Shown here: piece by piece, positions 1 to 16,127 of the stretch
How the letters are laid out: the number at the start of each line of letters is the position of its first letter
Numbering within the stretch: position 1 is the stretch's first letter
Source: Nocardia sp. BSTN01
GTDB lineage: Bacteria > Actinomycetota > Actinomycetes > Mycobacteriales > Mycobacteriaceae
DNA: 64,000 nt
Assembly (NCBI RefSeq): GCF_015354405.1
Contig: NZ_JADKYP010000003.1
Location: forward strand, 1-64,000
Direction of reading: 5' to 3'
Made by a program: the position numbers and the translations under genes
Notes under the pieces: model-generated
The model's input: the letters and a program-made list of their open reading frames with translations, nothing else
Databases searched by the model: none
What the model was told of the DNA's origin: nothing

Positions 1-158
1 TCGACACAGTCGGCGAGGTCGGCCATCGGCGCCAGCCATCGGGGAGCCGCCAGCACCAGGTGGTCGTCGCCGCGCGCGGCCCGCAACGCCCGCAGTGCCG
101 GCACGGCGGTCAGCAGATCACCCAGCCCCAGCGCCCGCAGGACCAGCGTCACGCCCAT
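1..158 (-). CDS. Glycosyltransferase family 9 protein, N-terminal part only
   Basis: Only the first 52 codons are present; the gene runs off the left edge. The visible protein opens with a GT9 (heptosyltransferase-like) signature: a hydrophobic first strand, then LRALGLGDLLTAVPALRAL, matching the R-x-x-x-(L/G)-GD-x-(L/I)-x-x-x-P loop of ADP-heptose:LPS heptosyltransferases. I chose ATG at 158; GTG at 152, overlapping the upstream stop as GTGA, is equally plausible. It is the last visible gene of a chain of overlapping minus-strand genes (kinase, gmhA, GT9-phosphatase fusion, GT4), so it is probably co-translated with them. Expected role is transfer of a heptose or related sugar onto a glycan acceptor in the cytoplasm or at the membrane face; acceptor and donor are not readable from the sequence. 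Confidence 0.75.
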   Translation of the reverse strand, partial: MGVTLVLRALGLGDLLTAVPALRALRAARGDDHLVLAAPRWLAPMADLADCV

Positions 159-1153
159 GACGGTGGAACCGCCGCGCGGCTCGGCGCCGCGGTCACGACG
201 GCGCGATCCGATCGTGTCTCGCCCATCGCCGGCGACGACACCGCACCGTCGCGAACGAACCGCGCCGCGACATCGACGGCCGAGCGGACCGCGTTGGTCA
301 CCGAATCGCCGGACGCCAGCGCCGCGGTGGCCGCCGCGGCGAATCGGTCTCCGGCACCGCACACGTCATACCCCGGACCGCATCGGAGGTCCGGCGATAT
401 CCCCACGGCCACAGTGCCTTTCGTACCGTGCCGATAGAGCACCGCCCCCTCGGCGCCGAGCGTGACCGCCACCGCCCGCGCCGACCATCGCCGGCTCAGC
501 TCACGGGCCCGATCCCCGAAGTCACCGTCTCCGGCCACCAGGCTCGCGGCCTCGTCACGATTCGGTGTCACCAGAGTCGCGCCGGTCACCGGCGCCGGAC
601 CGCGCGGATGCGGATCCCACACCACGGGAATGTCGCGCAGGCGCCGGGCCAGCAGGGCGCGAATTCCGGGATGGGCGGCGACGCCGTGACCGTAGTCGGC
701 GACGAGAATGCCCCGCGCGCACTCGAATACGGCCTCGACATCGGCCGGTAGCGGGCCCGCGCCGATACGGCCGTCGCCCGAGTCGACCCGGACCACGGAA
801 ACCGGGCGATCGGCCGCACCGTCCGCGGCGGCCGGAGCACACGGGCCGACGGCCCGGATCCGCTGTTTGCACACCGTCGTTCCCCGCATCGGCAGCGGCG
901 CCACCCGCACGCGCCCGGCCAGCAGCCGGCGCAGCCGGTGACCGGCCTCGTCGTCGCCGAATCCGCCGACCAGCACCACCTCGCCGGCGTCCGCGGTGGC
1001 CAGCAGAGCTGCCAGTCCCGCCCCGCCCGGACGCCAGATTCCGGCGCGGACGTCGACCACCGGAACACCCGCGTCGGGACTGCGACGGTCGGCGCGGCCC
1101 TCGATATCGCTGTCCAGCAGCACATCTCCGACGACGACCAGCGGTGCGATCAC
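149..1153 (-). CDS. PfkB-family sugar kinase (HldE kinase-domain-like)
   Basis: The 334-residue product is a ribokinase/PfkB-fold kinase. It starts LVVVGDVLLDSDIEG, has a glycine-rich substrate segment (RPGGAG), a TPNRDEA motif typical of the HldE/RfaE kinase domain, and near the C-terminus the PfkB signature DVCGAGD with the catalytic Asp. There is no nucleotidyltransferase domain, unlike the separate HldE at 7756-9249, so the locus holds two kinases of this family. GTG at 1153 overlaps the gmhA stop (GTGA), indicating translational coupling. By family and neighbours it should phosphorylate C1 of a heptose 7-phosphate or a related sugar. Whether it duplicates HldE or acts on another sugar is unknown. 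Confidence 0.8.
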   Translation of the reverse strand: MIAPLVVVGDVLLDSDIEGRADRRSPDAGVPVVDVRAGIWRPGGAGLAALLATADAGEVVLVGGFGDDEAGHRLRRLLAGRVRVAPLPMRGTTVCKQRIRAVGPCAPAAADGAADRPVSVVRVDSGDGRIGAGPLPADVEAVFECARGILVADYGHGVAAHPGIRALLARRLRDIPVVWDPHPRGPAPVTGATLVTPNRDEAASLVAGDGDFGDRARELSRRWSARAVAVTLGAEGAVLYRHGTKGTVAVGISPDLRCGPGYDVCGAGDRFAAAATAALASGDSVTNAVRSAVDVAARFVRDGAVSSPAMGETRSDRAVVTAAPSRAAVPPSWA

Positions 1154-1770
1154 GACAGATCCCGCAGCGCGGAATCCAGTGCCGTGCACAGCGCGTGGAC
1201 CAGCACCAGATGCACTTCCTGCACCGTCGCCGTCGACTCCGCCTCCACCGCCACCGCGTCGTCGCACAGCGACGCCAGCGAATTCGGCGCCGGTCCGGTC
1301 AACGCCCAACTGGTCAGGCCGATGTCGGCGGCCGCCTTCGCCGCGGCGACGACATTGCCGCTGGAACCGCTGGTGGACATCGCGACCAGCACGTCCCCGG
1401 GCCGGCCGTGCGCTCGTAGCTGGCGGGCGAACATCTCGTCGAATCCGTAGTCGTTGGCGATCGCCGTCACGCTCGAGGTGTCGGCGTGCAGCGCGACCGC
1501 CGACAGCGGTCGGCGTTCCTCCCGGAAACGCCCGGTCAGTTCGGCGGTCAGATGCTGTGCCTCCGCCGCGCTGCCGCCGTTGCCGCAGGCGAACAATCTG
1601 CCGCCGTCGCGGTAGACGCACGCCAATCGCTCCCCCCAGGCCCAGATGTGGGCGACGGAGGGGCGCACATTGCGGCGCAGCGCCGTACCGAGGAGTTCGA
1701 AGTGCTCCTCGAGTTCGGTGCCGATACCGGCGAGGTCGTGGCGCCGGTATTCATCTCGGGGGGTGGTCAT
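1150..1770 (-). CDS. gmhA: Phosphoheptose isomerase (SIS domain)
   Basis: The 206-residue protein matches GmhA in length and features. After an N-terminal helical part (residues 1-45) come GRLFACGNGGSAAEAQH, the SIS phosphosugar loop with the Ser/Gly contacts, then TAELTGRF, the ATSV-like HADTSSVTAIANDYGF stretch, and the second phosphate loop AMSTSGSSGN. GmhA converts sedoheptulose 7-phosphate into D-glycero-D-manno-heptose 7-phosphate, the first step of nucleotide-activated heptose synthesis, in the cytoplasm. ATG at 1770 overlaps the stop of the upstream GT9-phosphatase fusion by ATGA, and its own stop overlaps the next kinase. The set gmhA, kinase, phosphatase and heptosyltransferase-like genes in one operon supports the heptose assignment. 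Confidence 0.88.
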   Translation of the reverse strand: MTTPRDEYRRHDLAGIGTELEEHFELLGTALRRNVRPSVAHIWAWGERLACVYRDGGRLFACGNGGSAAEAQHLTAELTGRFREERRPLSAVALHADTSSVTAIANDYGFDEMFARQLRAHGRPGDVLVAMSTSGSSGNVVAAAKAAADIGLTSWALTGPAPNSLASLCDDAVAVEAESTATVQEVHLVLVHALCTALDSALRDLS

Positions 1771-3347
1771 GTCAGTGTGTCCTTCCCGTCGAGTTCGGCC
1801 AGTGCCAGCGACACTGCGGTCCGCAGGTCGGGTGCGACATGGGCGACCACCGCGGCGAAGGCGATCTCCGAGGGCCGCGTCTTCGCCGTGGGCACGAGCA
1901 CCGCCCGCGCTCCGGCCGCGGCGGCGGCCTCGACATCGCTGCCGATATCACCGATCACGACACATCGGTCGGGTGTCGTACCGAGTGCCTCGGCGGCCGA
2001 AACGACAAGTCCCGGTTGGGGTTTGCGGCATTCGCACCCGTCGTCGCGGCGATGCGGGCAGATCTGCCAGGTGTCGACGGGTCCGAGCAGATCCTCCACC
2101 TTCGCGGTCACCGCCGCCAACTGATCCGGGGTGATGGTGCCCGCTCCCACCCCCGACTGATTGCTCACCACTCCGATCCGAACACCGGCCCGGCGCAGCC
2201 GATCCAGCTCCGCGGCCGCGCCGGGTACGGGCTCCACCAGCTGCGGATCGGACAGATACGGCACATCGATGATCAGGGTGTCGTCGCGGTCGAACAGCAC
2301 CGCGGGCGGGCCGCCGTGTCGTTCCGCGGTGGTCGAGCGCCGTGGCTTCTCACCGCGCAGATGTGCCACCGCGTCGACGATCTGTTCGTCGGAGATCCGG
2401 TTCAGACAAGGATGACCCGGTATCGGGCACTGCCGGGCCCGGGTTCCGGCGCAGGCCGCCGACTGGTCGCCGAGCACCACGCACGGAACACCGTGCGGCG
2501 CCCAGCGGATCGCGGGAACGACCGGGGCGAACAACGAGACCACGGGGGTCGCGACGGCCGCCGCCAGATGCGCGGCACCGGTATTGGGCGCGACGACCAC
2601 ATCGGCCCCGCGCAGGACCGCCGCCAACTGCGGCAGATCGGTCGCTCCGCCCAGATCGCGGGCGTGCGTCCCGGCGACGGTGGCGGTCAGCTCACGCTCG
2701 TCGGGGCCGCCGGTCACCACCACGCGGTATCCCGCCTCGGCCAGGGCGCGGGCCACCGCCCGCGACCGCTGCGCCGACATCCGGCGGGCGGGCACGGCCG
2801 CCCCCGGGTGCAGCACGATATAGCCCGGCTCGCCGGTCAGCGCGGACACATCCGGCAGATCGGTGCGCACCCGCAGCCGGTGCCCCACCGACGGATAGCC
2901 CGCCGCCTCGGCCAGTGACAGCGCCCGAATCGCCTCGGGCACATCGTCGTCCAGCTGATGGCGGACATCGAGCAGCGATCCCGGATAGTCGGGACTGATC
3001 GCCGAGATCCGCCCGACTCCCGCCATTCGCAGCACCAGCGCCAGCGGCAGCGGCGACTGATGGAAGGAGGTGAAGATGATCGCCTCGTCCGGCTGCTGGG
3101 TGTCGACGAGTTTCACCAGCTCGGCAATCGATTCGGCATCCACCGGCGGGGCATCGAAATCGACCCAGCCGGCGTGGAATTCGAGCACCTGGCTCACACC
3201 GGGCAGCAGCTGCGCCGCGGCCCGCCCGCGCGGGCCCGCCAGAAAACTCACCCGCTGCGCGCGGGCGGCGACCGCCCGCACGGCCGGGCCCGTCAGCAAG
3301 ACATCGCCCGCACTGTCCAGGCGGGCCACCAGGACGTGGCCGTTCAT
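1767..3347 (-). CDS. Fusion: GT9 glycosyltransferase plus GmhB-like heptose bisphosphate phosphatase
   Basis: This 526-residue protein joins two enzymes. Residues 1 to about 335 are a GT9 glycosyltransferase: LDSAGDVLLTGPAVRAV at the start, a VLHPGAA loop near 178, a GGPDE motif near 213, and the donor-site PNTGAAHLAAA around 254-264. Residues about 348-520 are a HAD phosphatase of the histidinol-phosphatase/GmhB type: DRDDT at 353-357 (nucleophile Asp353 and acid/base Asp355), SNQSG near 395, a Cys/His zinc loop (Cys430, His432, Cys438, Cys440) and GDIGSD near 466. GmhB removes the C7 phosphate of heptose 1,7-bisphosphate. GmhB and heptosyltransferases are normally separate proteins. ATG at 3347 overlaps the upstream GT4 stop by ATGA. 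Confidence 0.87.
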   Translation of the reverse strand: MNGHVLVARLDSAGDVLLTGPAVRAVAARAQRVSFLAGPRGRAAAQLLPGVSQVLEFHAGWVDFDAPPVDAESIAELVKLVDTQQPDEAIIFTSFHQSPLPLALVLRMAGVGRISAISPDYPGSLLDVRHQLDDDVPEAIRALSLAEAAGYPSVGHRLRVRTDLPDVSALTGEPGYIVLHPGAAVPARRMSAQRSRAVARALAEAGYRVVVTGGPDERELTATVAGTHARDLGGATDLPQLAAVLRGADVVVAPNTGAAHLAAAVATPVVSLFAPVVPAIRWAPHGVPCVVLGDQSAACAGTRARQCPIPGHPCLNRISDEQIVDAVAHLRGEKPRRSTTAERHGGPPAVLFDRDDTLIIDVPYLSDPQLVEPVPGAAAELDRLRRAGVRIGVVSNQSGVGAGTITPDQLAAVTAKVEDLLGPVDTWQICPHRRDDGCECRKPQPGLVVSAAEALGTTPDRCVVIGDIGSDVEAAAAAGARAVLVPTAKTRPSEIAFAAVVAHVAPDLRTAVSLALAELDGKDTLT

Positions 3348-4363
3348 CCGCGCCTCCCGCTGTGGAATTCGGCGACCGTATCGGCGAGCAGCCGGTCCCA
3401 GCGCTGCGCGAACTCGGTGATGCCGAAGTTCTTCGCGGCCCAGGCCCGGGCAGCCTGTCCGGTGCGCCGGGCCAGTTCCGGATCGGCGAGGTAGCGGCCG
3501 ATCGCGCGGGCCAGCTCGTCGAGGTCGGTGGAGACGACGCCCGCCTCCGGCGGTACCGCCCAGGGTGCCTCGGTGGCGCCGACCGCCACCACGGGCATGC
3601 CCACGAACATGGCCTCGAGCAGCGACAGACCGAGCGAGGTCCAGCGAGCGGTGTGCACGAACACCCGCCGCCGGCCGATCTCGGTGTGCAGCCGTTCCTG
3701 TCCGACGTCACCCGCACCGTGAATCTGTGTCGCGGGGCAGTGCCCCCACTTGTGCAACTCGGCGGTGTCGATGCCGAAGACGTCGATCGGCGCGGCCCGA
3801 GACAGGTCCCCGAGCAGATCGGTCCCGGTGATCCGCCACCGGCGCACCGGCTCGTTGATGATCGAGGCCGCGCGCTCGAGCTCCCCGGTGTACCGGTACC
3901 CCGGATCGACCACACCGTGCGGGACCGTCTCGGCCCGGCAGCGCCCGTTGTCCCACATCAGCCGGTTGAATCCGGTGACGTGCACCAGCGTCACATCGCT
4001 GCGGTCCGCCATCGGATGCCGGCTGGTGGCCGCGTGTTCGCGAGGAGTGTTGTGCTCGACGTAGATCACCGGCACCTCCTGGCCGGGCACCCGGCCGAGC
4101 CAGTCACGCACCAGGTCGAATTCCTCCGGACGTTGCAGGACCACCACATCGACCGACTCGCCGGCCAGATCGGCCGGCGCGACCTCGACCGCGGATTCGG
4201 GCCAGGGTCGCCCGCACCGGCCCAGTGCCCACTGCCGCCGCCGGGGATCGGACGGCACCAGATAGCGATGACGCCCCTGGACGAAGGAGGTCATCCAGGA
4301 CCCGTGCACATGCCATACGAGCACGCGCAGGGGATCCGAACCCGGTACGGCGGCAACGCTCAT
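3344..4363 (-). CDS. GT4-like glycosyltransferase
   Basis: The 339-residue protein has a GT-B glycosyltransferase layout. An N-terminal Rossmann half contains a short-gap RVLVWHVHGSW start and VIYVEHNTPRE. The C-terminal half carries RRRVFVHTARWTSLGLSLLEAMFVGMPVVAVG, the E-x7-E-like donor phosphate and nucleotide-binding region of GT4 enzymes, followed by a typical terminal helix. ATG at 4363 overlaps the upstream SDR stop (ATGA) and is preferred over the in-frame GTG at 4369. It lies in the coupled gene chain with gmhA and the GT9 genes and probably adds a sugar to the same glycan. Donor and acceptor are not identifiable. Confidence 0.8.
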   Translation of the reverse strand: MSVAAVPGSDPLRVLVWHVHGSWMTSFVQGRHRYLVPSDPRRRQWALGRCGRPWPESAVEVAPADLAGESVDVVVLQRPEEFDLVRDWLGRVPGQEVPVIYVEHNTPREHAATSRHPMADRSDVTLVHVTGFNRLMWDNGRCRAETVPHGVVDPGYRYTGELERAASIINEPVRRWRITGTDLLGDLSRAAPIDVFGIDTAELHKWGHCPATQIHGAGDVGQERLHTEIGRRRVFVHTARWTSLGLSLLEAMFVGMPVVAVGATEAPWAVPPEAGVVSTDLDELARAIGRYLADPELARRTGQAARAWAAKNFGITEFAQRWDRLLADTVAEFHSGRRG

Positions 4364-5061
4364 GGCCACGACGATTCGGTGGAGGAGCAGACCAGCATTT
4401 CCCGCACCTCGGATCCGGCGGGCCGGGTGAGGGCGAAAACGACTGCGTCGGCGACGTTTTCGGGTCGTTCGAGGCGCACGTCGGGCCCGGGGACGTACTG
4501 CTCCGGGCGGTCGTCGAAGAAGTGTGTGTCCATGCCGCCCGGAATCAGCAGCGTCACGCCGATCTCCCCGGCCGTCTCGGCGGCCAGTGCCCGGGTGAAT
4601 CCCACGACCCCGAATTTCGACGCGCAGTATGCCGTGGCATCGGGCAGCGCCCGCATACCCAGAGTCGACGCACAGGTGACGACGTGTCCGTGAGACGCGC
4701 GCAAAGCCGGCAGCGCGGCGCGGATCACCGCGGCCGTGCCGAGCAGATTCACCCGCACCACCTGTTCCCAGGCGGCCGCGTCGACCTTCTCCAGTGGGCC
4801 GCAGGCGTCGATCCCGGCGGCGGTGAACACGCCGTCGATGCGGCCACCGGCCCGGTCGGCCAGGGCTCGCGTGGCCTCCTCGGCCGCCGCCGAATCCGCG
4901 AGATCGGCCTGCTCCCAGTCGACGTCGGTATCGGGCCGGTTCCGATCGATGACGAGCGGAACGCCACCGGCGGCGCGCACCGCGTGCACCGTCGCCGCGC
5001 CCAGGCCGGACGCACCACCGGTGATGACGACAGTACCCAAGGGGCGAGTCGATTGATTCAT
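4360..5061 (-). CDS. Short-chain dehydrogenase/reductase
   Basis: This is a classical SDR of 233 residues with TGGASGLG at 14-21 (NAD(P) loop), AAG at 81-83, Asn105, Ser132 and the catalytic Y-x-x-x-K pair Tyr145/Lys149. I chose ATG at 5061 because AGGAGG lies about 10 bases upstream; the longer open frame upstream has no such site and is rich in Arg and Pro. The gene sits inside the heptose/glycosyltransferase operon, so a role in oxidising, reducing or epimerising a sugar or a glycan precursor is likely. It is too short and of the wrong SDR type to be HldD, the ADP-heptose epimerase. Substrate unknown. Confidence 0.83.
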   Translation of the reverse strand: MNQSTRPLGTVVITGGASGLGAATVHAVRAAGGVPLVIDRNRPDTDVDWEQADLADSAAAEEATRALADRAGGRIDGVFTAAGIDACGPLEKVDAAAWEQVVRVNLLGTAAVIRAALPALRASHGHVVTCASTLGMRALPDATAYCASKFGVVGFTRALAAETAGEIGVTLLIPGGMDTHFFDDRPEQYVPGPDVRLERPENVADAVVFALTRPAGSEVREMLVCSSTESSWP

Positions 5062-5080
5062 CCGCGAGTTCCTCCTGATG

Positions 5081-6292
5081 TCAGCGAGCGGACGACGCGA
5101 TGTCGCCCGCGGCGGCCGTGGCGGCGGTCCGTCGATAGGCCGCCGAGGTATCTCTGGAGATCCGATCCCACGAATAACGTCCGCGGGCACGTTGCAGACC
5201 CGCTTCCCCCATCGCCCGGCGCGCCTGCCGGGTGTCGAGCAGGCCGGACACGACCTCGGCCAGCACCGCGGGGTCGCCCGAGGGGACCAGACGTCCGGTC
5301 ACCCCGTCGAGGACGGTGTCGAGCATTCCGCCGACCGCGGTGGCGACCACTGGCTTCGCGCACGACATCGCCTCGAGCGGAACGATGCCGAACGGCTCGT
5401 ACCACGGCGTGCACACCACGGCGTCGGCCGAGCGCAACAGCATCGGCATCTCCGCCCGCGGGACCGGCCCGCGCAACCGGACCCGTTGCGACACACCGTA
5501 TTCCGCGGCCACGGCACGCAACCGCGCCTGCTCGGCCTCGTCCTCGGCGCTCTGCGAACCGCCCGCGATCACCAGTTCGGTATCGGGCACCTCCGACAGT
5601 GCCGCGATCGCGGAGTCGAACCCCTTGCGCCGCACCATGCGGCCCACCGAGACGATCCGCCGCGGCAGATCCGGTTCCTCGGCGGGACCGTCGGGAGTGA
5701 ACAGCGACAGGTCGACACCACACGGCACCACCGACGTGCGCTCGCGCGGCACACCCATCCGGCCCAGCTCCCGGACCTCGTCGGAACAGGTCGCGACGAT
5801 ATGGGTCGCTCCCGCCGCCACCCGGCGCTCGGACTGGATGCGCGAGCGCGGGCTGGTGTCGGCCAGCCCCTGATAGCGCCGCTTCACGGTGCCCAGGGCG
5901 TGGAAGGTCAGAACGACCGGGACGGCGAGATCGCGCGCGGCGCGTTCGGCGGCGATGCCCGACATCCAGAAATGCGCGTGCACGACATCGGGGGTATCGG
6001 CACTCCACTGCCGGCGCAGAAAGGCGGCGAATTCGGCGAGGAACGGCAGAATGTCATCCTTCGGAATGTGCCGGGGCGGGCCGGCCGGAACGTGGATCAC
6101 GCGATATCCCGCCCCCACCAGCACCTCGGCGGGGATGCCGGGGTCGTCTCGGCGGGTGTAGACCCGCACGTCGTGCCCCAACCGCGCCAGTCCCGCGGCG
6201 AGTTCGGCCACATGCACGTTCTGACCGCCCGCGTCCACGCCACCCAGGGGCGCCAAGGGGCTCGCGTGCTCGGACACCATCGCAATCTTCAC
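5081..6292 (-). CDS. GT4 glycosyltransferase (GlgA/MshA/sucrose-phosphate-synthase type)
   Basis: The 403-residue product is a clear GT4 enzyme: KIAMVSEHASPLAPLGGVDAGGQNVHVAELA at the N-terminus with the acceptor-site glycine loop, VVHAHFWMSG, LTFHALG, then VSVGRMVRRKGFD and the donor motif CTPWYEPFGIVPLEAMSCAKPVVA (E-x7-E). The N-terminus resembles MshA and sucrose-phosphate synthase relatives. GTG at 6292 is preceded by GGAGGAAG, so I used it instead of the longer Arg/Pro-rich frame. It appears to be the first gene of the leftward operon reaching past position 1, and it is divergent from the GT9 gene at 6529. Sugar donor and acceptor are unknown. Confidence 0.86.
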   Translation of the reverse strand: MKIAMVSEHASPLAPLGGVDAGGQNVHVAELAAGLARLGHDVRVYTRRDDPGIPAEVLVGAGYRVIHVPAGPPRHIPKDDILPFLAEFAAFLRRQWSADTPDVVHAHFWMSGIAAERAARDLAVPVVLTFHALGTVKRRYQGLADTSPRSRIQSERRVAAGATHIVATCSDEVRELGRMGVPRERTSVVPCGVDLSLFTPDGPAEEPDLPRRIVSVGRMVRRKGFDSAIAALSEVPDTELVIAGGSQSAEDEAEQARLRAVAAEYGVSQRVRLRGPVPRAEMPMLLRSADAVVCTPWYEPFGIVPLEAMSCAKPVVATAVGGMLDTVLDGVTGRLVPSGDPAVLAEVVSGLLDTRQARRAMGEAGLQRARGRYSWDRISRDTSAAYRRTAATAAAGDIASSAR

Positions 6293-6493
6293 GCTTCCTC
6301 CGATCCGCGTCGCCGCCGGTGGACCTCGCGCTCTCGAACTGCGCCATAGCTGGCGGAAACCGTGCCATGGATGTATGCGACCGACTCGATCGTTCGACTT
6401 CTGAACCGGTTCGTGGTCGACATGCCCGCGCAGACCGGACGCAAACGGACGGGAGCAGAACTGTTCGACGACCGGCGTGCGGCGAATCCGCCA

Positions 6494-6518: not shown

Positions 6519-6528
6519 GGGCTGCGGT

Positions 6529-9249: not shown

Positions 9250-9282
9250 ACGTCCTCCTCGAAGCGGCGTTCTTCGGGTGGG

Positions 9283-9705
9283 TCACTGCGGCGGCAGCAA
9301 TTTCTCCAGCACGTCCTGGCAGGCGCGCTCACAGCGGTGGCACGCCTGCGCACACTGCTCGCAGTGGGTCATTCCGGTGTGCGACGCGCATTCCTCGGCG
9401 CACGAGGCACATGCCGCCGCGCAGGCACGCACCAGCGCGGCGGCCACGAACGGCACGAACGCCGTGCGTCGCGCCAGCACCCGTGCGGTGGCCGCGCAGA
9501 CGTCGGCGCAGTCCAGATCCTCCCGGATGCACTGACGCAGTGCGGCCACATCCGGTTCGGCCAGGCAGGAGTCGGCACAGATCGTGCAGGCCGTCTGACA
9601 GGCCACGCATTCCTCGACGCATCGCGCGATTTCGTCGGCGGTCAGCGCGCCGGATCCTCCGGGCCCGCCGGGATGTGTGCCGAACATGTCGAGCACCGTC
9701 GTCAT
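9283..9705 (-). CDS. Cytosolic copper-storage four-helix protein (Csp3-like)
   Basis: The 140-residue protein contains 18 cysteines arranged along helices, mostly as CxxxC and CxxC (29, 33, 36, 40, 43, 47, 59, 66, 70, 95, 99, 102, 106, 115, 118, 122, 125, 129). There is no signal peptide. This matches the DUF326 / Csp family: tetramers of four-helix bundles whose cores are lined with Cys and hold many Cu(I) ions in the cytoplasm. ATG at 9705 follows GGAGGAG. It sits between the ChaB-like gene and hldE on the same strand. A metal/oxidant-stress gene inside a glycan locus, close to a catalase, suggests a shared stress regulon rather than a role in glycan chemistry. Confidence 0.85.
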   Translation of the reverse strand: MTTVLDMFGTHPGGPGGSGALTADEIARCVEECVACQTACTICADSCLAEPDVAALRQCIREDLDCADVCAATARVLARRTAFVPFVAAALVRACAAACASCAEECASHTGMTHCEQCAQACHRCERACQDVLEKLLPPQ

Positions 9706-9734
9706 GGCTCCTCCTCCGGGTGTGAGCCGGTGAA

Positions 9735-10151
9735 TCAGTTCTTACGGCGGGCGCGCTCGTTCGACCGTTCGATCGATTCGACCAATTCCTTCTTCGTCAT
9801 GCGGGAACGGCCGCTGATGTCGAGGCGCTTCGCGATATCCAGCAGATGCTGTTTGGACGCGTTGGCATCCACACCGCCGGCGGTCTTGCCCGCGGGTTCC
9901 GGTCCGCCGTGCCGGGCGCGCTCGTCGGAGGGACCCTTGCGCTGCTTGGGCTCCCAATGGTCGCCGACCTTCTCGTAACTGTGCTTGAGCGCGGCGTAGG
10001 CGACGCGATGCGCGCGTTGCTCGCTCTGGTACTCCTGCAGCGCGGAATCGTGAACCTCGGCGAACATACGCTGCGCGTGCTCATCGGATTTCCGTATGGT
10101 GCTGGGCAATTCGGAGAGTTTCGGGTCACCGCGCCGAGTGGTCTTGGGCAT
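9735..10151 (-). CDS. ChaB-domain protein with C-terminal Rho-N-like helical domain
   Basis: The 138-residue basic protein has two parts. Residues about 10-70 (LSELPSTIRKS, then a helix ending in AYAALKHSYEKVGDHWEPK) resemble the ChaB fold, named as a cation-transport regulator but of unclear function. After a charged linker, residues about 96-138 (KQHLLDIAKRLDISGRSRMTKKELVESIE) resemble the Rho-N/SAP-type helix-extension-helix found in nucleic-acid-binding proteins. ATG at 10151 is preceded by GGGAGCAG. In actinomycetes such ChaB/Rho-N proteins are often stress-induced; a stress-type promoter candidate lies 64 bases upstream. I cannot name its partner. Confidence 0.75.
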   Translation of the reverse strand: MPKTTRRGDPKLSELPSTIRKSDEHAQRMFAEVHDSALQEYQSEQRAHRVAYAALKHSYEKVGDHWEPKQRKGPSDERARHGGPEPAGKTAGGVDANASKQHLLDIAKRLDISGRSRMTKKELVESIERSNERARRKN

Positions 10152-10214
10152 CGTCTGCTCCCTTCGTCGACGGTCGACTGCCCGGGACGCCGAACGGGCG
10201 CCCCTGTCGACGCA

Positions 10215-10239
10215 CTACCCGGACTGGTCCGGCATATTC
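10215..10239 (-). promoter_or_regulatory. Possible general-stress sigma promoter before the ChaB-like gene
   Basis: Read on the minus strand: GAAT (10239-10236), 15 bases, GGGTAG (10220-10215). The -35 is the loose GNNT form; spacing and -10 equal those at 18718-18742. It lies 64 bases upstream of the ChaB-like start, at the very end of the preceding GT2 gene, and would also serve the copper-storage gene and hldE downstream. Confidence 0.4.
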
Positions 10240-11113
10240 ACCGCAACAGCGCGATCTGTGCTTCGACATGGCCGGGCAGGCGGCGGCGTGCCCGCAGAGC
10301 GTGTGGCATCCGGGTCACCAGGCCCAGCAGCGCCGGCACACTGCTCGGATGCCGCAGCGCCGTGCGGCCCACGGTGGCCAGCTCACGCAGGCATGCGCCG
10401 ACGGGCCGGCGCATCACCGCGGTGAGCGCGGCGTTGCGGGATTCGAGATGGGCGCGAGCCGTATTCGCCATCCGGTGCGGCGAGGGCATGTGCCGGCTCA
10501 CGATCTGCGGCGAATAACACAGCAACCAGCCCGCCGCGGCCAGATCGTAGGCCAGCAGCGTCTCCTCGCCGGCGAAATGCAGTACCGGGGAAAATCCGCC
10601 GGCCGCCAGGAACGGATCGCGGCGCACCACCGCCGCCCCCGCGAGAAAGCCCAGGACCGATGGTCCGGGCGCCTGGCGAGCAGTGCCCAGGGGACTGTGG
10701 TGCATCAGCTGGTTCACCGGATCGTCGCGCCCGTCCGGACCCACCAGGGTCCGGCCGGCGAGGAGCCCGACCTCGGGGTGGCGGTCGAACAACTGCTCGG
10801 CCGTATTCAAGGCGCCCGGCGCCCACCAGGCATCGTCGTCACAGAACGCGACGAACGGTGTGGTCGCGCATCGGGCGCCGTGATTGCGGGCGACCGCGCC
10901 CTCGTTGCGCGGCAGTTCGACCACCTCCAGCGCGCGGATCCGGCCGTGCCGCGCCCGCGCCGCCGGCACCGTGTGATCGTCGGAAGCGTTGTCCACCACC
11001 ACGATCGGCGGCTGCGGCTCGTGCTCGGCGAGGCGATCTAGCGTGGTGACCAGTTCGTCGGCCCGATTGCGGGTCGCGATGACCACGGTGGTTCTGCCGC
11101 GCTCCCCGCTCAT
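10238..11113 (-). CDS. Family 2 glycosyltransferase
   Basis: The 291-residue protein is a GT-A fold GT2: TTVVIATRNRADELVTTL, IVVVDNASDD, NEGAVARNHGA, and the DxD-like motif AFCDDDAWW near residue 93. A later GEETLLAYDLAAAGW segment corresponds to the ED-x catalytic region. The C-terminal 70 residues are helical and Arg-rich, without a clear membrane span. ATG at 11113 overlaps the stop of the UDP-glucose dehydrogenase gene (ATGA). It likely transfers UDP-glucuronate or a UDP-pentose made by the two dehydrogenase/decarboxylase neighbours onto the growing glycan; this is inferred from context only. Confidence 0.85.
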   Translation of the reverse strand: MSGERGRTTVVIATRNRADELVTTLDRLAEHEPQPPIVVVDNASDDHTVPAARARHGRIRALEVVELPRNEGAVARNHGARCATTPFVAFCDDDAWWAPGALNTAEQLFDRHPEVGLLAGRTLVGPDGRDDPVNQLMHHSPLGTARQAPGPSVLGFLAGAAVVRRDPFLAAGGFSPVLHFAGEETLLAYDLAAAGWLLCYSPQIVSRHMPSPHRMANTARAHLESRNAALTAVMRRPVGACLRELATVGRTALRHPSSVPALLGLVTRMPHALRARRRLPGHVEAQIALLR

Positions 11114-12411
11114 CGGCCGTTGCCGATCACGGTGAACCCATCGCGCCGCAGAGCCTCGGCATCCAGCAGATTGCGGGTGTCGACGATCAGCCGGCGCCGT
11201 GTCAGGGTGCCCAGCCGCGGCCAGTCGAGTTTGGCGAATTCGGGCCATTCGGTCGCCACGACCACCGCGTCCGCGTCCCGCGCGGCGTCGTAGGCATCGT
11301 CGGCGATGTGCACGCGGGCGGGCAGGCCCAGGTCCCGGCCGCGCACCGGCGCCACGGTGGGGTCGTAGACGCACAGCTGAGCGCCGTGTTCGGCCAGGGC
11401 GGCGGCCAATCGACGGGCGGGTGAGTCGCGCAGATCGCCGGTGCCGGCCTTGAACGTCAGGCCGAACAGCGCGGCGCGCACCCCCCGCAAGTCGGCGCCG
11501 GTCCGGTCCAGTACCCGCGCGACGGTGGCGACGGTACGGTCGGTCTGCGCGCGATTGGCCGCCACGGCGGCCTCCAGCACGCCCAGGTTCACCTGCTTGT
11601 CGTGGGCGATGTGCAGCAGCGCCTCGGTGTCCTTCGGCAGACAGGATCCGCCCCAGCCCGGCCCCGGCCGCAGGAACGCGGCGCCGATACGCGGATCGGA
11701 TCCCAGGCATTCACCGACGAGTTCGATATCGGCACAGACCTTTTCGCACAGCTCGGCGAGTTCGTTCACGAACGACACCTTCGTCGCGAGGAAGGCATTG
11801 CTGGCATATTTGGCCACTTCGGCACTTTCGAAGTCGACGATCTGCACCGCCGGAGACTCGACACCCTGATACAGCCGCGCGATCCGTTCCCCGACCGCGG
11901 TATCGGCGGTACCGATGACGATGCGATCGGCGTGCAGGAAGTCGTAGACCGCATGACTTTCGCGCAGGAATTCCGGATTGCTCACCACGTGCAGTCCGCA
12001 CCGGCCCGCCGCTTCGTCGGCCGCGCGCGCCGTACCGACCGGGACGGTGGACTTCAGCACGATGATCGCACCGGGCGACAGCAGATCGCACAGCGCGGCC
12101 AGCACGTCTTGGACGGCACTGGCGTCCGCCGCACCCGAGGGGGTGGCCGGCGTCGGCACGCAGACGAAAACCACTTCCGCCGACGCCAGCCGCTCGATAT
12201 CGGTGTCGAACTCCAGCAGACCGGCGCGAATACCTTGGCGCAGAAGCGGTTCCAAGTCCGGTTCATGGAGGTCGCTGCGCCCCTGCCGCAATCGTTCGAC
12301 ACAGCCGGCGTCGACGTCGACCGCGGTCACCGGCAACCCGAGATGCGCGAGGCCGGCCGCGGTGGTGGTGCCGACATACCCGGCTCCCACCACACCGATG
12401 CGTTCACTCAT
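11110..12411 (-). CDS. ugd: UDP-glucose 6-dehydrogenase
   Basis: The 433-residue protein has the UDP-glucose/GDP-mannose dehydrogenase layout: Rossmann GAGYVG at 9-14, VCVPTP near 83, STVPVGT near 121, NPEFLRE at 145-151, KYASNAFLATKVSFVNE, and the catalytic Cys257 in GGSCLPKDT. It oxidises UDP-glucose twice with NAD to UDP-glucuronate in the cytoplasm. I chose ATG at 12411, overlapping the end of the upstream GT2 gene by 8 bases. Together with the UXS-like decarboxylase at 15144-16127 it gives a route UDP-glucose, UDP-glucuronate, UDP-xylose (or a 4-keto pentose). A UDP-N-acetylhexosamine dehydrogenase activity cannot be excluded from the sequence. Confidence 0.88.
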   Translation of the reverse strand: MSERIGVVGAGYVGTTTAAGLAHLGLPVTAVDVDAGCVERLRQGRSDLHEPDLEPLLRQGIRAGLLEFDTDIERLASAEVVFVCVPTPATPSGAADASAVQDVLAALCDLLSPGAIIVLKSTVPVGTARAADEAAGRCGLHVVSNPEFLRESHAVYDFLHADRIVIGTADTAVGERIARLYQGVESPAVQIVDFESAEVAKYASNAFLATKVSFVNELAELCEKVCADIELVGECLGSDPRIGAAFLRPGPGWGGSCLPKDTEALLHIAHDKQVNLGVLEAAVAANRAQTDRTVATVARVLDRTGADLRGVRAALFGLTFKAGTGDLRDSPARRLAAALAEHGAQLCVYDPTVAPVRGRDLGLPARVHIADDAYDAARDADAVVVATEWPEFAKLDWPRLGTLTRRRLIVDTRNLLDAEALRRDGFTVIGNGR

Positions 12412-13471
12412 GGCCGGACTCCGATCCGCCGCTCGCCGGCCGGGGCAGCCGGGTCCCGCGCGCCACCTGCCATTCGCCACGCAACCGATGCCAGCACGCG
12501 GCCGGTGGAATCAGCACACTGGTCAGCGTCATGGCGCCGACCTCGCGGACCGTGGCGGGACCCTGACCGATACGCCGCGCCGCGAATTCGGCCGTACCCG
12601 CCAGCCAGAGGCCCGCACACGCCAGCGCGGGTACGCGGCGACGGCGCAGCGCGAAGAACGCGGCCGCCAGCCCCGCCGCGGAGACCGCCGCGTGCGCGCC
12701 GAGTCTGCCGCCGCTCTCGCCGATGTCCTCGCGCCAGGTGCGGCCGAATTTGCTGCGCATCAACGCGTTGTCGGCATTACCCGCTTGGGCGCGCAGCGAC
12801 GACAGCAGCGAACCTTTCGCCGGCGGATGGGTGGTGACCCGGCTGCCCGAGGTGATGTCTCGGCCGGTCCGCACCACGCGCAGCGCGAAGTCGGAGTCTT
12901 CCCGGTAGGCGCGCCGGAAGCGTTCGTCGAAGCCGCCCAGTTCGGCGAGGACGGCGCGGCGGTAGGCCATATCCGCGGTGATCCAGCGCGCGCCGGCCAG
13001 GCCGGCCGTGCCGCGTTCGGCATCGGTGGGCCGGCGTCCGGACGGCAGCGGCACCCACAACCGTGCCTGCGATCCGGCGACGTGGCCCGGCAGATCACGC
13101 AGATCCTCGGCCAGGCGCGCTCGCCATTCCGGCGACGGCACCACATCGTCGTCGAGAAAGGCGATCCATTCCGACTCGGCCGCTCGCCATCCGGCATTGC
13201 GGGCCGCGGCCGGTCCGCGACCACCCGAACGCACCACGCGCAACGGAATATCGCTGGGCGGCAACGACAACGGCTCGGCCGCATCCGGTCCGCCCGCCGG
13301 CGGCCGATCGTCGACGACGACGATTTCGGCCGGGGCGACACCTCCGGGCCGATTCACCGCCGCCAGCACATGCGCCAAACCGGCTCGCCCGATGGTGGGA
13401 ATCACGATGGTGTAGTCGATGCTCTCCGCGTCGGTGCCGCCCGGAGTCACAGCGTCGCGCACGCCGATCAC
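12404..13471 (-). CDS. Family 2 glycosyltransferase with C-terminal hydrophobic segment
   Basis: The 355-residue product carries a GT2 domain: DYTIVIPTIGRAGLAHVL near the N-terminus, IVVVDDRPP, GPAAARNAGWRAA, and the DxD-type FLDDDVVPSPEW near 120. A downstream YREDSDFALRVVRTG matches the GT2 ED motif. Residues about 270-325 are hydrophobic (AAVSAAGLAAAFFALRRRR, then ALACAGLWLAGTAEFAA), probably one or two membrane segments, so the enzyme may work at the inner membrane face. GTG at 13471 overlaps the carbamoyltransferase stop (GTGA); other in-frame GTGs lie just downstream. It is part of the carbamoyltransferase-GT2-ugd-GT2 set. Confidence 0.83.
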   Translation of the reverse strand: MIGVRDAVTPGGTDAESIDYTIVIPTIGRAGLAHVLAAVNRPGGVAPAEIVVVDDRPPAGGPDAAEPLSLPPSDIPLRVVRSGGRGPAAARNAGWRAAESEWIAFLDDDVVPSPEWRARLAEDLRDLPGHVAGSQARLWVPLPSGRRPTDAERGTAGLAGARWITADMAYRRAVLAELGGFDERFRRAYREDSDFALRVVRTGRDITSGSRVTTHPPAKGSLLSSLRAQAGNADNALMRSKFGRTWREDIGESGGRLGAHAAVSAAGLAAAFFALRRRRVPALACAGLWLAGTAEFAARRIGQGPATVREVGAMTLTSVLIPPAACWHRLRGEWQVARGTRLPRPASGGSESGHE

Positions 13472-15102
13472 CGCCGCACGACGAACGGGCCGATCGCGAG
13501 CAGGTCCACCGGCGCGGAGCCGAAACATTCGAGCGCGTCCCGCGGCGAATCGACCATGGGCCGACCGGCGGTATTGAGGCTCGTGTTCACGACCACCGGC
13601 AACCCGGTCGCCGCGTCGAACCGGGTGATCATCTCGGCCAGCAGCGGATGGTCGGCGCCGTCGACGGTCTGGATGCGCGCGGTGCCGTCCACATGGGTCA
13701 CCGCCGGCAGCCGCTTGCGCCACGGTTCGGCCACATCGTGGACGAAAAGCATGTACGGACTGGGCAGCGGCCCGCGTGTGAAGATCTCCGCCGCCCGCTC
13801 CGCGAGCACCATCGGCGCCACCGGACGGAACTGCTCCCGGCCCTTGACGGCGTTGAGCCGCTCCAGATTTGCGGCGTACCCGGGATGCGCCAGCAGGGAA
13901 CGATATCCGAGAGCGCGGGGCCCGTATTCCGCCCGGCCCTGGAACCAGGCGACGATCTCGTTGCCGGCCAACGCCTGTGCGACGGTGCCGGCCAGATCGG
14001 CCGGTCGCTCGTAGCGGATGTGGGCCTCGCGCAACGTCTGTTCGATGTCGGCGTCGGAGAATCCGCGGCCCAGAGCGGCGGTCGTCATCGGTTCGGGAGG
14101 CGGTCCGGCTTCGGCAGCGATCGCCAGGGCCGCGCCGAGCGCGGTGCCCGAATCACCCGCCGCCGGTTGCACCCAGATGTCGTCGAACGGGCCCTGATCG
14201 AACAGCACGGTATTCGCCACGCAGTTCAGCGCGATGCCCCCCGCCATCGTGAGTTTGTCCGCTCCGGTGGCCGCATGCAACCACCGGCACAGGTCCAGCA
14301 TCACCTCCTGCAGGACCTGCTGCACCGAGGCGGCGAGGTCGGCGTGTTCGGGCCGCATCGGCTCGTTCGGGGCGCGCTTCGGGGCGCGCTTCGGGGCGTA
14401 GGCGTCCCAGTTGATCGGCCGAGTGCGAAATCCACCGTCGCCGGTGCTGAAAACCTTGTCGCGCAACCAGTCCACGAATCGCGGTTGCCCGTAGGAGGCC
14501 AACGCCATCACCTTGTACTCGTCGCTGGAACGCGAAAATCCGAGGTGAGCGGTCAGTTCTTCGTACATCAACCCGAGCGAATGCGGAAGCTGTTGGGTGG
14601 CAAGGACATCGAGCTTGCCATTGCGGTATTCGCCCGCGAGCATCGACGTGGACTCGCCGCGGCCGTCCAGCGTCAGCACGGCGGCGTCTCCGAACGGCGC
14701 GGCGAGTCCGCACGACGCCGCGTGCGCGACGTGATGCCGTACGAAACGCACCTTGTCGGGGTCGAGGCCAGGAAGCTCGGTCGCCAGCAGGTAGGGCGCT
14801 CGCTCGGCGTATCGGGTGCGCAACGGTTCCCAGCTCGGGTCGAGGCCGTCGAGACTGTCGTCCACCTGTGCCGGATCGTAGGAGTAGCCCACGGCGTCGA
14901 GATCCGCCGCCGTGAGACCCGCCTGGGCGAGACACCAGGCCGCGGCCTGTGCGGGCTGTTCCCAGGCGGAGAAGGGCACCGGCCGCTTGCCGTGCTTACG
15001 TCTGCTGAACCGTTCCTCTTCGGCGGCCGCGACTATGGTGCCGTCCACGACCAGTGCCGCCGCCGAATCGTGAAATATCGCATTGATTCCGAGAACGCGC
15101 AT
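13468..15102 (-). CDS. O-carbamoyltransferase (TobZ/NodU/CmcH family)
   Basis: The 544-residue protein has the two-domain carbamoyltransferase layout. The N-terminal Kae1-like domain starts MRVLGINAIFHDSAAALV and has the metal/ATP site His123, His124 and His127 in RHHVAHAAS. The C-terminal domain has WFQGRAEYGPRALGYRSLLA, REQFRPVAPMV and VVNTSLNTAGRPMVDS. These enzymes use carbamoyl phosphate and ATP to make carbamoyl-AMP and transfer the carbamoyl group to a sugar or cyclitol hydroxyl. ATG at 15102 is preceded by GGGAGGTG. A strong stress-type promoter candidate lies 42 bases upstream. Residues near 250 contain a small APKR tandem repeat. In a glycosyltransferase locus it predicts a carbamoylated sugar in the product. 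Confidence 0.88.
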   Translation of the reverse strand: MRVLGINAIFHDSAAALVVDGTIVAAAEEERFSRRKHGKRPVPFSAWEQPAQAAAWCLAQAGLTAADLDAVGYSYDPAQVDDSLDGLDPSWEPLRTRYAERAPYLLATELPGLDPDKVRFVRHHVAHAASCGLAAPFGDAAVLTLDGRGESTSMLAGEYRNGKLDVLATQQLPHSLGLMYEELTAHLGFSRSSDEYKVMALASYGQPRFVDWLRDKVFSTGDGGFRTRPINWDAYAPKRAPKRAPNEPMRPEHADLAASVQQVLQEVMLDLCRWLHAATGADKLTMAGGIALNCVANTVLFDQGPFDDIWVQPAAGDSGTALGAALAIAAEAGPPPEPMTTAALGRGFSDADIEQTLREAHIRYERPADLAGTVAQALAGNEIVAWFQGRAEYGPRALGYRSLLAHPGYAANLERLNAVKGREQFRPVAPMVLAERAAEIFTRGPLPSPYMLFVHDVAEPWRKRLPAVTHVDGTARIQTVDGADHPLLAEMITRFDAATGLPVVVNTSLNTAGRPMVDSPRDALECFGSAPVDLLAIGPFVVRR

Positions 15103-15143
15103 CGAACACCTCCCACAGGTGTCGCAAGGCTTGTGCCGGCGAA

Positions 15144-15168
15144 CTACCCGGCGTGTGAGGGCATAAAC
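15144..15168 (-). promoter_or_regulatory. General-stress sigma (SigB/SigF-type) promoter of the carbamoyltransferase gene
   Basis: On the minus strand: GTTT (15168-15165), exactly 15 bases, GGGTAG (15149-15144). This agrees closely with the GTTT-N15-GGGTA(T/G) consensus of SigF/SigB factors. The -10 overlaps the last codons of the epimerase gene and lies 42 bases before the carbamoyltransferase ATG. The catalase promoter at 18248-18272 has identical spacing and -35 core. Confidence 0.65.
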
Positions 15169-16127
15169 CGCGTCCGCGCCCGCCGCTGCGCGAACCACGC
15201 CAGTGTCCGGCGCAAACCCTCCTCCGGCGAGACGGTGGGTTCCCAGCCGAGCAACGCTCGGGCCGAACCGATATCGGGACACCGCCGTCGCGGATCGTCG
15301 ACGGGCATGTCGATCGACCGGATCGGCGAGTGACCGCCACCGAGCCGCTGAATCAGCGCCGCGATCTCGTTGACCGTCATCTCCTGCGGATTCCCGATGT
15401 TCACCGGACCGCGATGCCCGGACTCCGCCAGCGCGAGCAGCCCGCGCACGGTGTCGTCGACGTAGCAGATCGAGCGCGTCTGCTCACCGTCGCCGGCGAT
15501 GGTGAGCGGTTCCCCGGCCAGCACCTGCTCGATGAAGGCCGGCACCATCCGGCCGTCGTCGGCCCGCATGCCCGGCCCGTAGGTGTTGAAGATGCGGGCG
15601 ATCGCCACATCGGTCCCGCGGTCGCGGTGATAGGCGGTCACCAAAGCCTCGGCGTACCGCTTCGCCTCGTCGTACACACTTCGCGGGCCGACGGGATTGA
15701 CGTTGCCCCAATAGGTTTCGCGCTGCGGATGTTCGGCCGGGTCACCGTAGACCTCGCTGGTCGAGGCCAGCAGCAGCCGCGCTCCGCGGCGATCCGCCAG
15801 GTCGAGCGCCACCGCGGTGCCGTCCGCGCCGGCTCGCAGCGTCTGCACTCCGAGCCTGGCGTAGTGGATCGGCGACGCGGGCGAGGCGAGATGTGCGACC
15901 AGGCCGACAGGCCCGATATCGGGCAATCCCTGCGTGACGTCGTGGGCGAGGAATCGGAAACCCGGATACTTCTCCAATTTCGCGATGTTGTCCGGATCTC
16001 CGGTGGAGAAGTTGTCCACGCCCACGACCGCCGTGCCTCGTTCGAGCAGGGCCGTGCACAGGTGCGCGCCGATGAATCCGGCACACCCGGTCACGGCTGC
16101 GCGGCGAAAACGTGGCGCGCTCGTCAT
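15144..16127 (-). CDS. NAD-dependent epimerase/decarboxylase, UDP-glucuronate decarboxylase-like
   Basis: The 327-residue extended SDR has GCAGFIG at 14-20, VDNFSTG near 38, the HLASPASPIHYA stretch characteristic of UDP-glucuronate decarboxylases (UXS), STSEVYGDP near 122, and the catalytic Tyr152 and Lys156 in VYDEAKRYAE; the C-terminal VDDPRRRCPDIGSARALLGWEP is also UXS-like. UXS converts UDP-glucuronate to UDP-xylose. With ugd in the same gene run this forms a two-step pentose pathway. ATG at 16127 follows a short spacer after the catalase stop (16130). A UDP-sugar epimerase or dehydratase is the alternative, but the ASPASP motif argues for decarboxylase. Confidence 0.83.
   Translation of the reverse strand: MTSAPRFRRAAVTGCAGFIGAHLCTALLERGTAVVGVDNFSTGDPDNIAKLEKYPGFRFLAHDVTQGLPDIGPVGLVAHLASPASPIHYARLGVQTLRAGADGTAVALDLADRRGARLLLASTSEVYGDPAEHPQRETYWGNVNPVGPRSVYDEAKRYAEALVTAYHRDRGTDVAIARIFNTYGPGMRADDGRMVPAFIEQVLAGEPLTIAGDGEQTRSICYVDDTVRGLLALAESGHRGPVNIGNPQEMTVNEIAALIQRLGGGHSPIRSIDMPVDDPRRRCPDIGSARALLGWEPTVSPEEGLRRTLAWFAQRRARTRFMPSHAG

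Follow-up and report, generated by a model that had tools for sequence, protein, structure and literature searches.

A widespread heptose, xylose and carbamoyl gene cassette in Nocardia, predicted to build a small oligosaccharide under stress-type control

What would an actinobacterium without lipopolysaccharide (LPS) make from heptose? The question is posed by contig C130 (NZ_JADKYP010000003.1) of Nocardia sp. BSTN01, a genome of 7.79 Mb, of which positions 1-64000 were analysed; this stretch of 64,000 nucleotides is called the window here, and genomes, contigs and other loci carry our own G, C and L numbers. The left end of the window holds a cassette in which genes for heptose activation stand beside genes for UDP-xylose supply, glycosyltransferases and an O-carbamoyltransferase (CarbT). 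In our reading, this widespread cassette probably makes a stress-induced, cytoplasmically assembled, carbamoylated heptose/xylose oligosaccharide; the heptose supply, the unity of the cassette and its stress-type control are well supported, and the product and its acceptor we infer. The cassette offers a test case, with about 13-15 genes shared across phyla, a predicted combination of D-glycero-heptose, xylose and carbamate, and stress-type promoters in actinobacteria. Passages of one study state that the role of most heptose-making enzymes outside LPS hosts is open and suggest their conserved neighbours as a lead (PMC11573728). The cassette also suggests that NDP-heptoses, which are recognised by the innate sensor ALPK1, may be made by many LPS-free actinobacteria; the initial annotation of the locus had raised the link to ALPK1, which holds for any maker of ADP-heptose and is not specific evidence for this locus.

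Homology and intact catalytic residues give good support to a full predicted route from sedoheptulose 7-phosphate (S7P) to NDP-D-glycero-D-manno-heptose, in which GmhA, the kinase PfkB2 or the kinase domain of HldE-A, GmhB and the nucleotidyltransferase domain of HldE-A would act. HldE-A holds both domains, and solved heptose kinases and nucleotidyltransferases are among its structural matches (PDB heptose kinase, 9.3e-24; Pfam PfkB); its nucleotidyltransferase domain passes TIGR02199 with 202.4 bits against a cut-off of 181.5, and among named organisms the HldE search placed Nocardia veterana closest, at 84% identity. The PDB matches of GmhA are phosphoheptose isomerases (up to 9.3e-46), and its H, E, Q and E residues are kept in 27 of 27 homologues; for the last H the figure is 26, the remaining homologue having a gap. 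The GmhB domain matches heptose bisphosphate phosphatases (1.1e-20), and its HAD and zinc residues (D, D, T, N, Q and K, together with a C/H/C/C zinc set) are retained by 31 of 31 homologues. At 49-50% identity, PfkB2 resembles the kinase half of intact HldE-B, a second HldE type (residues 1-299 of L142 or 18-338 of L139); it lacks a nucleotidyltransferase half, and no match to the C-terminal part of HldE-B was found next to the gene. The L-glycero epimerase HldD is needed solely for the L-glycero product. As the initial annotation had proposed, HldD appears to be absent: none of its 14 matches in the genome passes the cut-off, the best scoring 105.5 against 274.6 bits, and the complete D-glycero route stands without it. 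The nucleotide sugar made by this route is most likely ADP-heptose, judging from the protein sequences.

The supply of the second sugar is predicted with similar clarity. The best PDB match of the decarboxylase is human UXS1 (1.8e-91, versus 2.2e-34 for the next family, epimerases), and T123, E125, Y152 and K156, which we take to be the catalytic residues, are kept in 19 of 19 homologues; what had been annotated as UXS-like is a clear UXS. By homology, Ugd and UXS would supply UDP-xylose from UDP-glucose. CarbT matches solved carbamoyltransferases across its full length, contains both Carbam_trans domains and keeps its H, H, H and D residues in 20 of 20 homologues. It falls short of the NodU equivalog cut-off (NF041651, 191 versus 1000 bits); the two domains and the His residues place it among the predicted O-carbamoyltransferases of the TobZ/NovN family.

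Genetically bound to the heptose and UDP-xylose genes are seven glycosyltransferases together with CarbT. GT9a (45-58 bits) and GT9b (50-66 bits) stay under the equivalog cut-offs of LPS heptosyltransferases I, II and III (134.6-185.3), and GT9b is a frequent partner of HldE-A, which it adjoins in other actinobacteria. For GT4 the nearest solved relatives are sucrose-phosphate synthase and MshA (PDB 6kih, 1.2e-63; 3c48, 2e-50). It lies under the MshA cut-off TIGR03449 (242.4 versus 462.5 bits), which another gene of the genome, at C123, passes; at the columns that we take to be MshA acceptor-site residues, all 34 cassette GT4s retain K and 33 of them R, whereas, unlike in MshA, Y is replaced by F and T by A in all 34. 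GT1like, the signature glycosyltransferase of the cassette, shows only weak matches to named families (best PDB match 1.5e-5; Pfam in the C-terminal half) and passes no NCBIfam cut-off; its structure prediction is confident (pLDDT 85.4, pTM 0.84). GT2a resembles MftF/EpsD under the cut-off. A classical short-chain dehydrogenase (SDR) also belongs to the set; of 20 fetched regions, 15 show a match to it, which reaches at least 54% identity in 13 and is weak in the other two (29% and 36%).

Most of the initial gene list is borne out: GmhA, the two-domain HldE, the GmhB-like phosphatase, Ugd, UXS, four glycosyltransferases outside GT9 and the O-carbamoyltransferase are all present as intact open reading frames (ORFs) with the stated domains, and the only exception among the named genes is the third GT9, which the contig end cuts. 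Two of the three GT9 proteins it listed are complete, one of them as the GT9a-GmhB fusion; the third is indeed a GT9 and has only 52 codons in the window. Likewise, the phosphatase given as a separate protein is there with its HAD and zinc residues, fused to GT9a in a single ORF of 526 residues. PfkB2 and the SDR are members of the set that the annotation had not named. A domain scan of 20 ORFs in and beside the cassette returned no flippase, polymerase, ligase or lipid-priming enzyme, in agreement with the annotation for the first three; nor, judged by eye, did priming, flipping or polymerising enzymes occur among the gene groups common to at least 4 of 29 loci.

Do these genes form one system? 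HldE-A is present in 23 of 151 Nocardia genomes and a CarbT orthologue (identity of 66% or more) in 39, both groups being set by eye from identity values and the former including G027 and G148, with the nucleotidyltransferase half only, and G033, with a broken gene. In the 25 other Nocardia genomes listed with both HldE-B and CarbT, the two genes lie 3.1-3.4 kb apart in 23 and on separate contigs in two, as the annotation's view of the heptose and carbamoyl/xylose genes as a unit would predict. G145 has the whole set in a single run, katE-GT1like-GT4-UXS-CarbT-GT2b-GmhB-GT9a-GmhA-HldE-B-SDR-GT9c-Ugd-DUF2795-GT2a, and the catalase gene katE adjoins the cassette there and in three close relatives, as it does in the window. 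Fusions tie glycosyltransferases to heptose enzymes: GT9a-GmhB in the window, GT2b-GmhB in other Nocardia, and GT4-GmhA in L024, L028 and L037. The window is best read as two rearranged halves, in which a carbamoyl half (UXS, CarbT, GT2b, Ugd and GT2a) without heptose genes of its own would lie next to a type A heptose half.

The initial annotation had suggested that such a gene set is rare, and this did not hold. A sample of 249 genomes of the order turned up GT1like in 137, spread over 43 of 68 genera, and a sample of 296 across the phylum in 30 (23 of 198 genera). Within the order, 124 of the 137 genomes have an HldE-B homologue within 15 kb of GT1like (positions from 128 of 133 HldE-B genomes), and CarbT shares a genome with GT1like in 100 of 103 cases, including 39 of the 42 in which the two are not found within 15 kb of each other (103 of 105 CarbT genomes, two of 45-46% identity being left out). 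In 20 regions chosen for high score and varied kinship, some with sets cut by the region ends, we counted GT4 in 20, GmhA and HldE-B in 18 each, GT9a in 17, GmhB in 16, CarbT in 12, and UXS and GT2b in 11 each. The search for the set in other genomes that the annotation had proposed found it, whole or in part, in Nocardia, Streptomyces, the wider order, cyanobacteria, Nitrosospira and Burkholderiales.

In an HldE tree built from segments of at least 380 residues, the window protein falls among actinobacterial HldE-A proteins, sister to those of cyanobacteria and Nitrosospira; HldE-B and the tridomain proteins form a separate clade. The cyanobacterial loci (L021, L024 and L028) and that of Nitrosospira (L037) carry GT4, GmhA, SDR, GmhB, HldE, GT9s and GT1like, and GT4 and GmhA are one ORF in L024, L028 and L037, the three examined. 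In a plasmid collection, GT1like was found in 14 records, one each from Streptomyces, Nonomuraea, Arthrobacter and Clavibacter and ten from Burkholderiales. The Streptomyces plasmid (L204) has UXS, CarbT, GT2b, GmhB, GT9a, GT1like, GT4, GmhA, HldE, GT9c and two GT2s in a row; GmhA and HldE are also present in L208 (Arthrobacter) and L214 (Nonomuraea), and L205 (Clavibacter) has nothing beyond GT1like, a match resembling GT9b and a weak one resembling UXS.

The Burkholderiales version is borne on megaplasmids. Of the ten regions, eight were fetched (H8 and H13 being left out), and seven of these contain GT4, GmhB, GT9a, CarbT, GT2b, GT1like and UXS; GmhA or HldE was found in none of the eight, over 25-27 kb each. 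Burkholderia make heptose for LPS. It may therefore be chiefly in hosts with no heptose synthesis that the cassette includes one, because LPS synthesis would supply ADP-heptose to the Burkholderiales that dispense with GmhA and HldE. Passages of published work list rfaE for B. thailandensis (PMC3966863) and report that two Burkholderia accumulate NDP-heptoses (PMC11573728). As a possible home of the cassette we considered a published low-oxygen locus of Burkholderia and rejected it, as the passages available from two papers make no mention of the cassette. An unusual protein flanks the Burkholderiales set, a single-chain ABC exporter with a C-terminal response-regulator receiver domain (three of three proteins checked; L206:2210-4954, L207:1655-4345 and L209:2529-5216), which may tie export to a phosphorelay.

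A shared promoter pattern connects the actinobacterial loci. The sequence GTTT-N15-GGGTA precedes CarbT in 12 of 12 Nocardia loci, with differing flanking letters in the more distant ones, and it precedes katE in the window, L144 and L139, the three looked at. Across 45 actinobacterial cassette loci (898 kb, related genomes included; 16 further loci, mostly with HldE-A and GT9b only, stand outside the counts), GTTT and GGGTA are paired 61 times at a spacer of 15 and 16 times at a spacer of 16, 77 in total, whereas the remaining spacers between 3 and 40, with 14-17 set aside, average 1.06 pairs and never exceed 3. Control stretches of 130 kb, from which 1.1 kb around a stand-alone GT9 gene of L015 (one site there) and the first 1.1 kb of L014 had been excluded, gave no pair at spacers 15-16; a scrambled motif gave none, and 13 non-actinobacterial loci showed no spacer peak (2 pairs at 15). 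Of the 77 sites, 33 lie no more than 250 bp upstream of a queried gene, which is CarbT for 13 of them, UXS for 5, GT1like for 4, GT2a for 4, GT9b for 3, DUF2795 for 2 and GmhB for 2. The mycobacterial SigF consensus is given in passages of PMC7693655 as GGWWT-N16-17-GGGTAY, with GTTT-N17-GGGTAA as an example. The cassette sites share GTTT, GGGTA and a narrow range of spacing with it, and differ in a spacer of 15-16 where the consensus has 16-17 after GGWWT; the stricter GGWWT-N15-17-GGGTAY has no match in the cassette and one at 30246. We regard stress-type, SigB/SigF-like control of the actinobacterial cassette loci as well supported by these predicted sites.

The gene company points in the same direction. 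Among Nocardia genomes, a gene for the small protein ChaB is found in 43 of the 51 that carry a cassette of either type versus 11 of the 100 that carry none, and in the order it is found in 120 of 137 GT1like genomes versus 44 of 112 others. At least 41 genomes, from five families, have it no more than 25 kb from GT1like, a count that used the GT1like positions of 67 of the 137 genomes and omitted those with ChaB on another contig or far off. Burkholderiales cassettes neighbour Mn-catalase, phasin, hemerythrin, CsbD, BON and DUF2795 genes, and the Streptomyces plasmid cassette neighbours STAS, PP2C, CsbD and CBS genes. Separately, HldE-A and GT9b in other actinobacterial families (L025, L029 and L035) lie near DJ-1/PfpI-like genes (Pfam, L025) and genes recognised by eye as Ku- and LigD-like, surroundings that look like a stress or repair setting.

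How, then, might the cassette work? We propose that GT4, which is SPS/MshA-like, would start a chain on a phosphorylated acceptor, that the three GT9s would add heptose and the GT2, GT4 and GT1like enzymes xylose and other sugars, and that CarbT would carbamoylate one residue. The product would be a small oligosaccharide built in the cytoplasm, because no lipid-priming enzyme, flippase, polymerase or ligase is seen in the set, and it may aid survival under stress. A more specific version, which we find rather doubtful, has the glycan begin on a phosphorylated C7 sugar: GT4 would act on S7P or heptose 7-phosphate, much as sucrose-phosphate synthase acts on fructose 6-phosphate, the GmhB-like HAD protein would serve as its phosphatase, and the GT9s, GT2s and CarbT would complete a soluble carbamoylated heptose/xylose oligosaccharide, a class of stress solute common to actinobacteria, cyanobacteria and Burkholderiales. 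Such an acceptor is suggested by the GT4-GmhA fusion and the GT4 acceptor-site columns (K and R kept, F and A replacing Y and T), and the idea is also grounded on the retention of GmhB where GmhA and HldE are dropped, in Burkholderiales, and on the stress-type promoters.

A number of observations weigh against the cytoplasmic oligosaccharide as we describe it, and some of them feed other explanations. GmhA (TIGR00441, 164.9 versus 209.5 bits), the kinase domain of HldE-A (TIGR02198, 210 versus 345 bits) and GmhB (beta-type model 110.5 bits, alpha-type 34.8) are all below their equivalog cut-offs, and the C-terminal motif of HldE-A reads YLADHSTS and not the (F/L)XXGXSTT described in passages of PMC11461863 and PMC11573728, its H taking the position at which R indicates broad NTP use; that R is present in the relatives from cyanobacteria and Nitrosospira. 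The motif and the scores of GmhA and GmhB would suit a drift of the heptose enzymes to another sugar, giving a product without D-glycero-D-manno-heptose, but every catalytic or metal residue checked is kept and HldE-A exceeds TIGR02199, and we hold this to be improbable. As to unity, N. veterana has the heptose half alone, with no Ugd, GT2b, CarbT or UXS nearby, and 12 of the 23 HldE-A genomes of the genus lack a CarbT orthologue; carbamoylation is therefore not universal, and such genomes are what two unrelated clusters, one for heptose and one for carbamoyl and xylose, adjacent by chance in the window would lead one to expect. Their co-location in other Nocardia, another genus of the family, a Streptomyces plasmid and Burkholderiales strongly contradicts chance, which we reject as having next to no probability. 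The oligosaccharide reading must also accommodate the 42 of 103 CarbT genes that are not within 15 kb of GT1like, the fact that counts over related genomes are not independent and that the co-occurrence tests ignore phylogeny, and Nitrosospira, a Gram-negative that keeps GmhA and HldE in its cassette as an exception to the host logic proposed above.

Stress-type control has its own difficulties: 44 of the 77 promoter-like sites do not stand before a queried gene, the 249 bp before GT4 in the window contain no such site, the spacers are one or two shorter than the quoted consensus, and 30 of the 41 close ChaB cases come from one family. The katE sites are among the 44 because the katE ORF start was set too far upstream, and since the 44 precede genes outside the queried set, the cassette may be part of a larger stress island. 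With regard to location, the exporter fusion in the three Burkholderiales regions checked could mean a surface or secreted glycan, so that export is possible there. An envelope glycolipid or surface polysaccharide, whose export and lipid priming would be encoded at other loci, would also be consistent with a borderline hydrophobic segment in GT2b (near residue 257, by hydropathy) and with a pyruvyltransferase-like gene that recurs near the cassette in 5 of 29 loci, yet no priming, flipping, polymerising or ligating enzyme turned up among the 20 ORFs scanned or, by eye, in the recurrent gene groups, and we consider the envelope glycan somewhat unlikely. Could heptose instead decorate an antibiotic, as in septacidin or hygromycin B? 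A different cluster of other Nocardia (L145) does combine a tridomain synthetase, CarbT, GT9, PLP-type enzyme, GDSL and methyltransferase genes. However, no aglycone or NRPS/PKS genes were found among the ORFs scanned in and beside the window cassette, and its spread over 43 of the 68 genera sampled from the order is unlike that of a patchy specialised cluster, which makes a specialised-metabolite origin very improbable.

The predicted oligosaccharide pathway can also be set against known systems. With the Gram-negative ADP-heptose pathway (GmhA, HldE, GmhB, HldD and WaaC/F) it shares four chemical steps, the enzyme families and GT9 transferases, and it differs in having no HldD over the cut-off, a GmhB-GT9 fusion, an extra PfkB, GT9s below the LPS cut-offs and a non-LPS host. 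Tridomain NDP-heptose synthetases of actinobacteria were reportedly described by Tang et al. in 2022. These resemble the window system as actinobacterial heptose synthesis, and in L145 such a SIS-PfkB-nucleotidyltransferase chain has a carbamoyltransferase neighbour; in the window no tridomain chain is found, GmhA, PfkB2 and the didomain HldE are separate ORFs, and the neighbouring genes are other ones. Tang et al. are also said to have traced, in 2018, the septacidin and hygromycin B heptose pathways of actinobacteria to S7P. Compared by description, the S7P-derived heptose is alike, whereas the window shows no antibiotic aglycone genes and its cassette is broadly conserved. Heptose synthesis is spread across kingdoms (Tang 2024, as cited in passages of PMC11461863 and PMC11573728), and the heptose of the Pseudomonas LPS core is O-carbamoylated by WapO (PA5005), according to passages of PMC8005017; compared by description, both systems have a carbamoyltransferase working with heptose, that of WapO in an LPS core setting. 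For a possible relationship to the bleomycin sugars, the literature search gave nothing on heptose. Heptose synthesis in actinobacteria is thus already in print; no account of the cassette itself was found in the open-licence literature, a search that lay outside most subscription papers and all bioRxiv preprints and gives weak evidence of absence. The L145-type cluster (L145:4794-18547 in G016; L146 in G111) encodes the tridomain protein, a carbamoyltransferase, GT9, an SHMT-fold PLP enzyme, an epimerase and a GDSL/hexapeptide protein (domains assigned by Pfam in L145 alone), and looks like a specialised-metabolite cluster built on heptose.

Table 1. Genes and promoter sequences at the left end of the window
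Feature	Position	Strand	Basis or remark
GT9c (third GT9, first 52 codons)	1..158	-	cut by contig end
PfkB2 sugar kinase, 334 aa	149..1153	-	Pfam PfkB
GmhA, sedoheptulose 7-phosphate isomerase, 206 aa	1150..1770	-	PDB matches, residue check
GT9a-GmhB fusion, 526 aa: heptosyltransferase-family domain and heptose 1,7-bisphosphate 7-phosphatase domain	1767..3347	-	Pfam, PDB, residues
GT1like, signature glycosyltransferase of the cassette, 341 aa	3344..4369	-	Pfam, C-terminal half
Classical short-chain dehydrogenase (SDR), 233 aa	4360..5061	-	Pfam, PDB
GT4, sucrose-phosphate-synthase/MshA-like glycosyltransferase, 403 aa	5081..6292	-	PDB matches
GT9b, heptosyltransferase-family glycosyltransferase, 387 aa	6529..7692	+	Pfam PF01075
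HldE-A, heptose 7-phosphate kinase/heptose 1-phosphate nucleotidyltransferase, 497 aa	7756..9249	-	NCBIfam, Pfam, PDB
Cys-rich protein, 140 aa, 18 Cys	9283..9705	-	Cys count
ChaB + Rho_N small protein	9735..10151	-	Pfam PF06150, 9.7e-20
GT2a, family 2 glycosyltransferase, 291 aa	10238..11113	-	Pfam
Ugd, UDP-glucose 6-dehydrogenase, 433 aa	11110..12411	-	Pfam three-domain match
GT2b, family 2 glycosyltransferase, 355 aa	12404..13471	-	Pfam
CarbT, O-carbamoyltransferase (NodU/TobZ/NovN family), 544 aa	13468..15102	-	Pfam PF02543+PF16861, PDB
UXS, UDP-glucuronate decarboxylase (UDP-xylose synthase), 327 aa	15144..16127	-	PDB, residues
katE, KatE-type large catalase ORF (likely true start ATG at 18199)	16130..18340	-	Pfam 7.1e-178
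SigB/SigF-like promoter sequence GTTT-N15-GGGTA, ends 43 bp before CarbT	15145..15168	-	motif match
SigB/SigF-like promoter sequence GTTT-N15-GGGTA, about 50 bp before likely katE start	18249..18272	-	motif match

Genes were called from reading frame, GC content by codon position and domain matches (Table 1). From right to left, the minus strand carries katE, UXS, CarbT, GT2b, Ugd, GT2a, ChaB, the Cys-rich protein and HldE-A, and after the convergent plus-strand GT9b it resumes with GT4, SDR, GT1like, GT9a-GmhB, GmhA, PfkB2 and the start of GT9c. Because neighbouring genes overlap by 4-10 bp or stand at most 86 bp apart, with katE ending 2 bp before UXS, two operons are likely, one from katE to HldE-A and one from GT4 to GT9c. 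Contig C130 stops within GT9c, and the remainder of a GT9 opens contig C172 (L014), followed by a DUF2795 segment; this is likely the rest of the window gene, and in N. veterana (L016) the counterparts of both parts lie side by side in an intact arrangement.

The segment 9283-10151 codes for the Cys-rich protein and ChaB, not for glycan genes. The Cys-rich protein, which has no Pfam or NCBIfam match, may be copper-storage/DUF326-like, possibly a metal-storage four-helix protein; its gene lies between those of ChaB and HldE-A in the window, N. veterana keeps it at 67%, and none was seen in the three closest relatives (L097-L099). In G033, the HldE-A gene is split into two pieces (L116). An aldehyde dehydrogenase gene recurs beside the cassette in 13 of 29 loci and is absent from the window locus (for example at L026:8481-9986, L138:2651-4075, L142:2127-3656 and L140:18225-19601; Pfam Aldedh for three). 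The window genome has a fourth GT9, the stand-alone gene of L015, which is an intact paralogue of GT9c (L015:7832-8912, contig C24); the 16 kb fetched around it revealed no further cassette gene, and a GTTT-N16-GGGTA site ends 100 bp before the gene.

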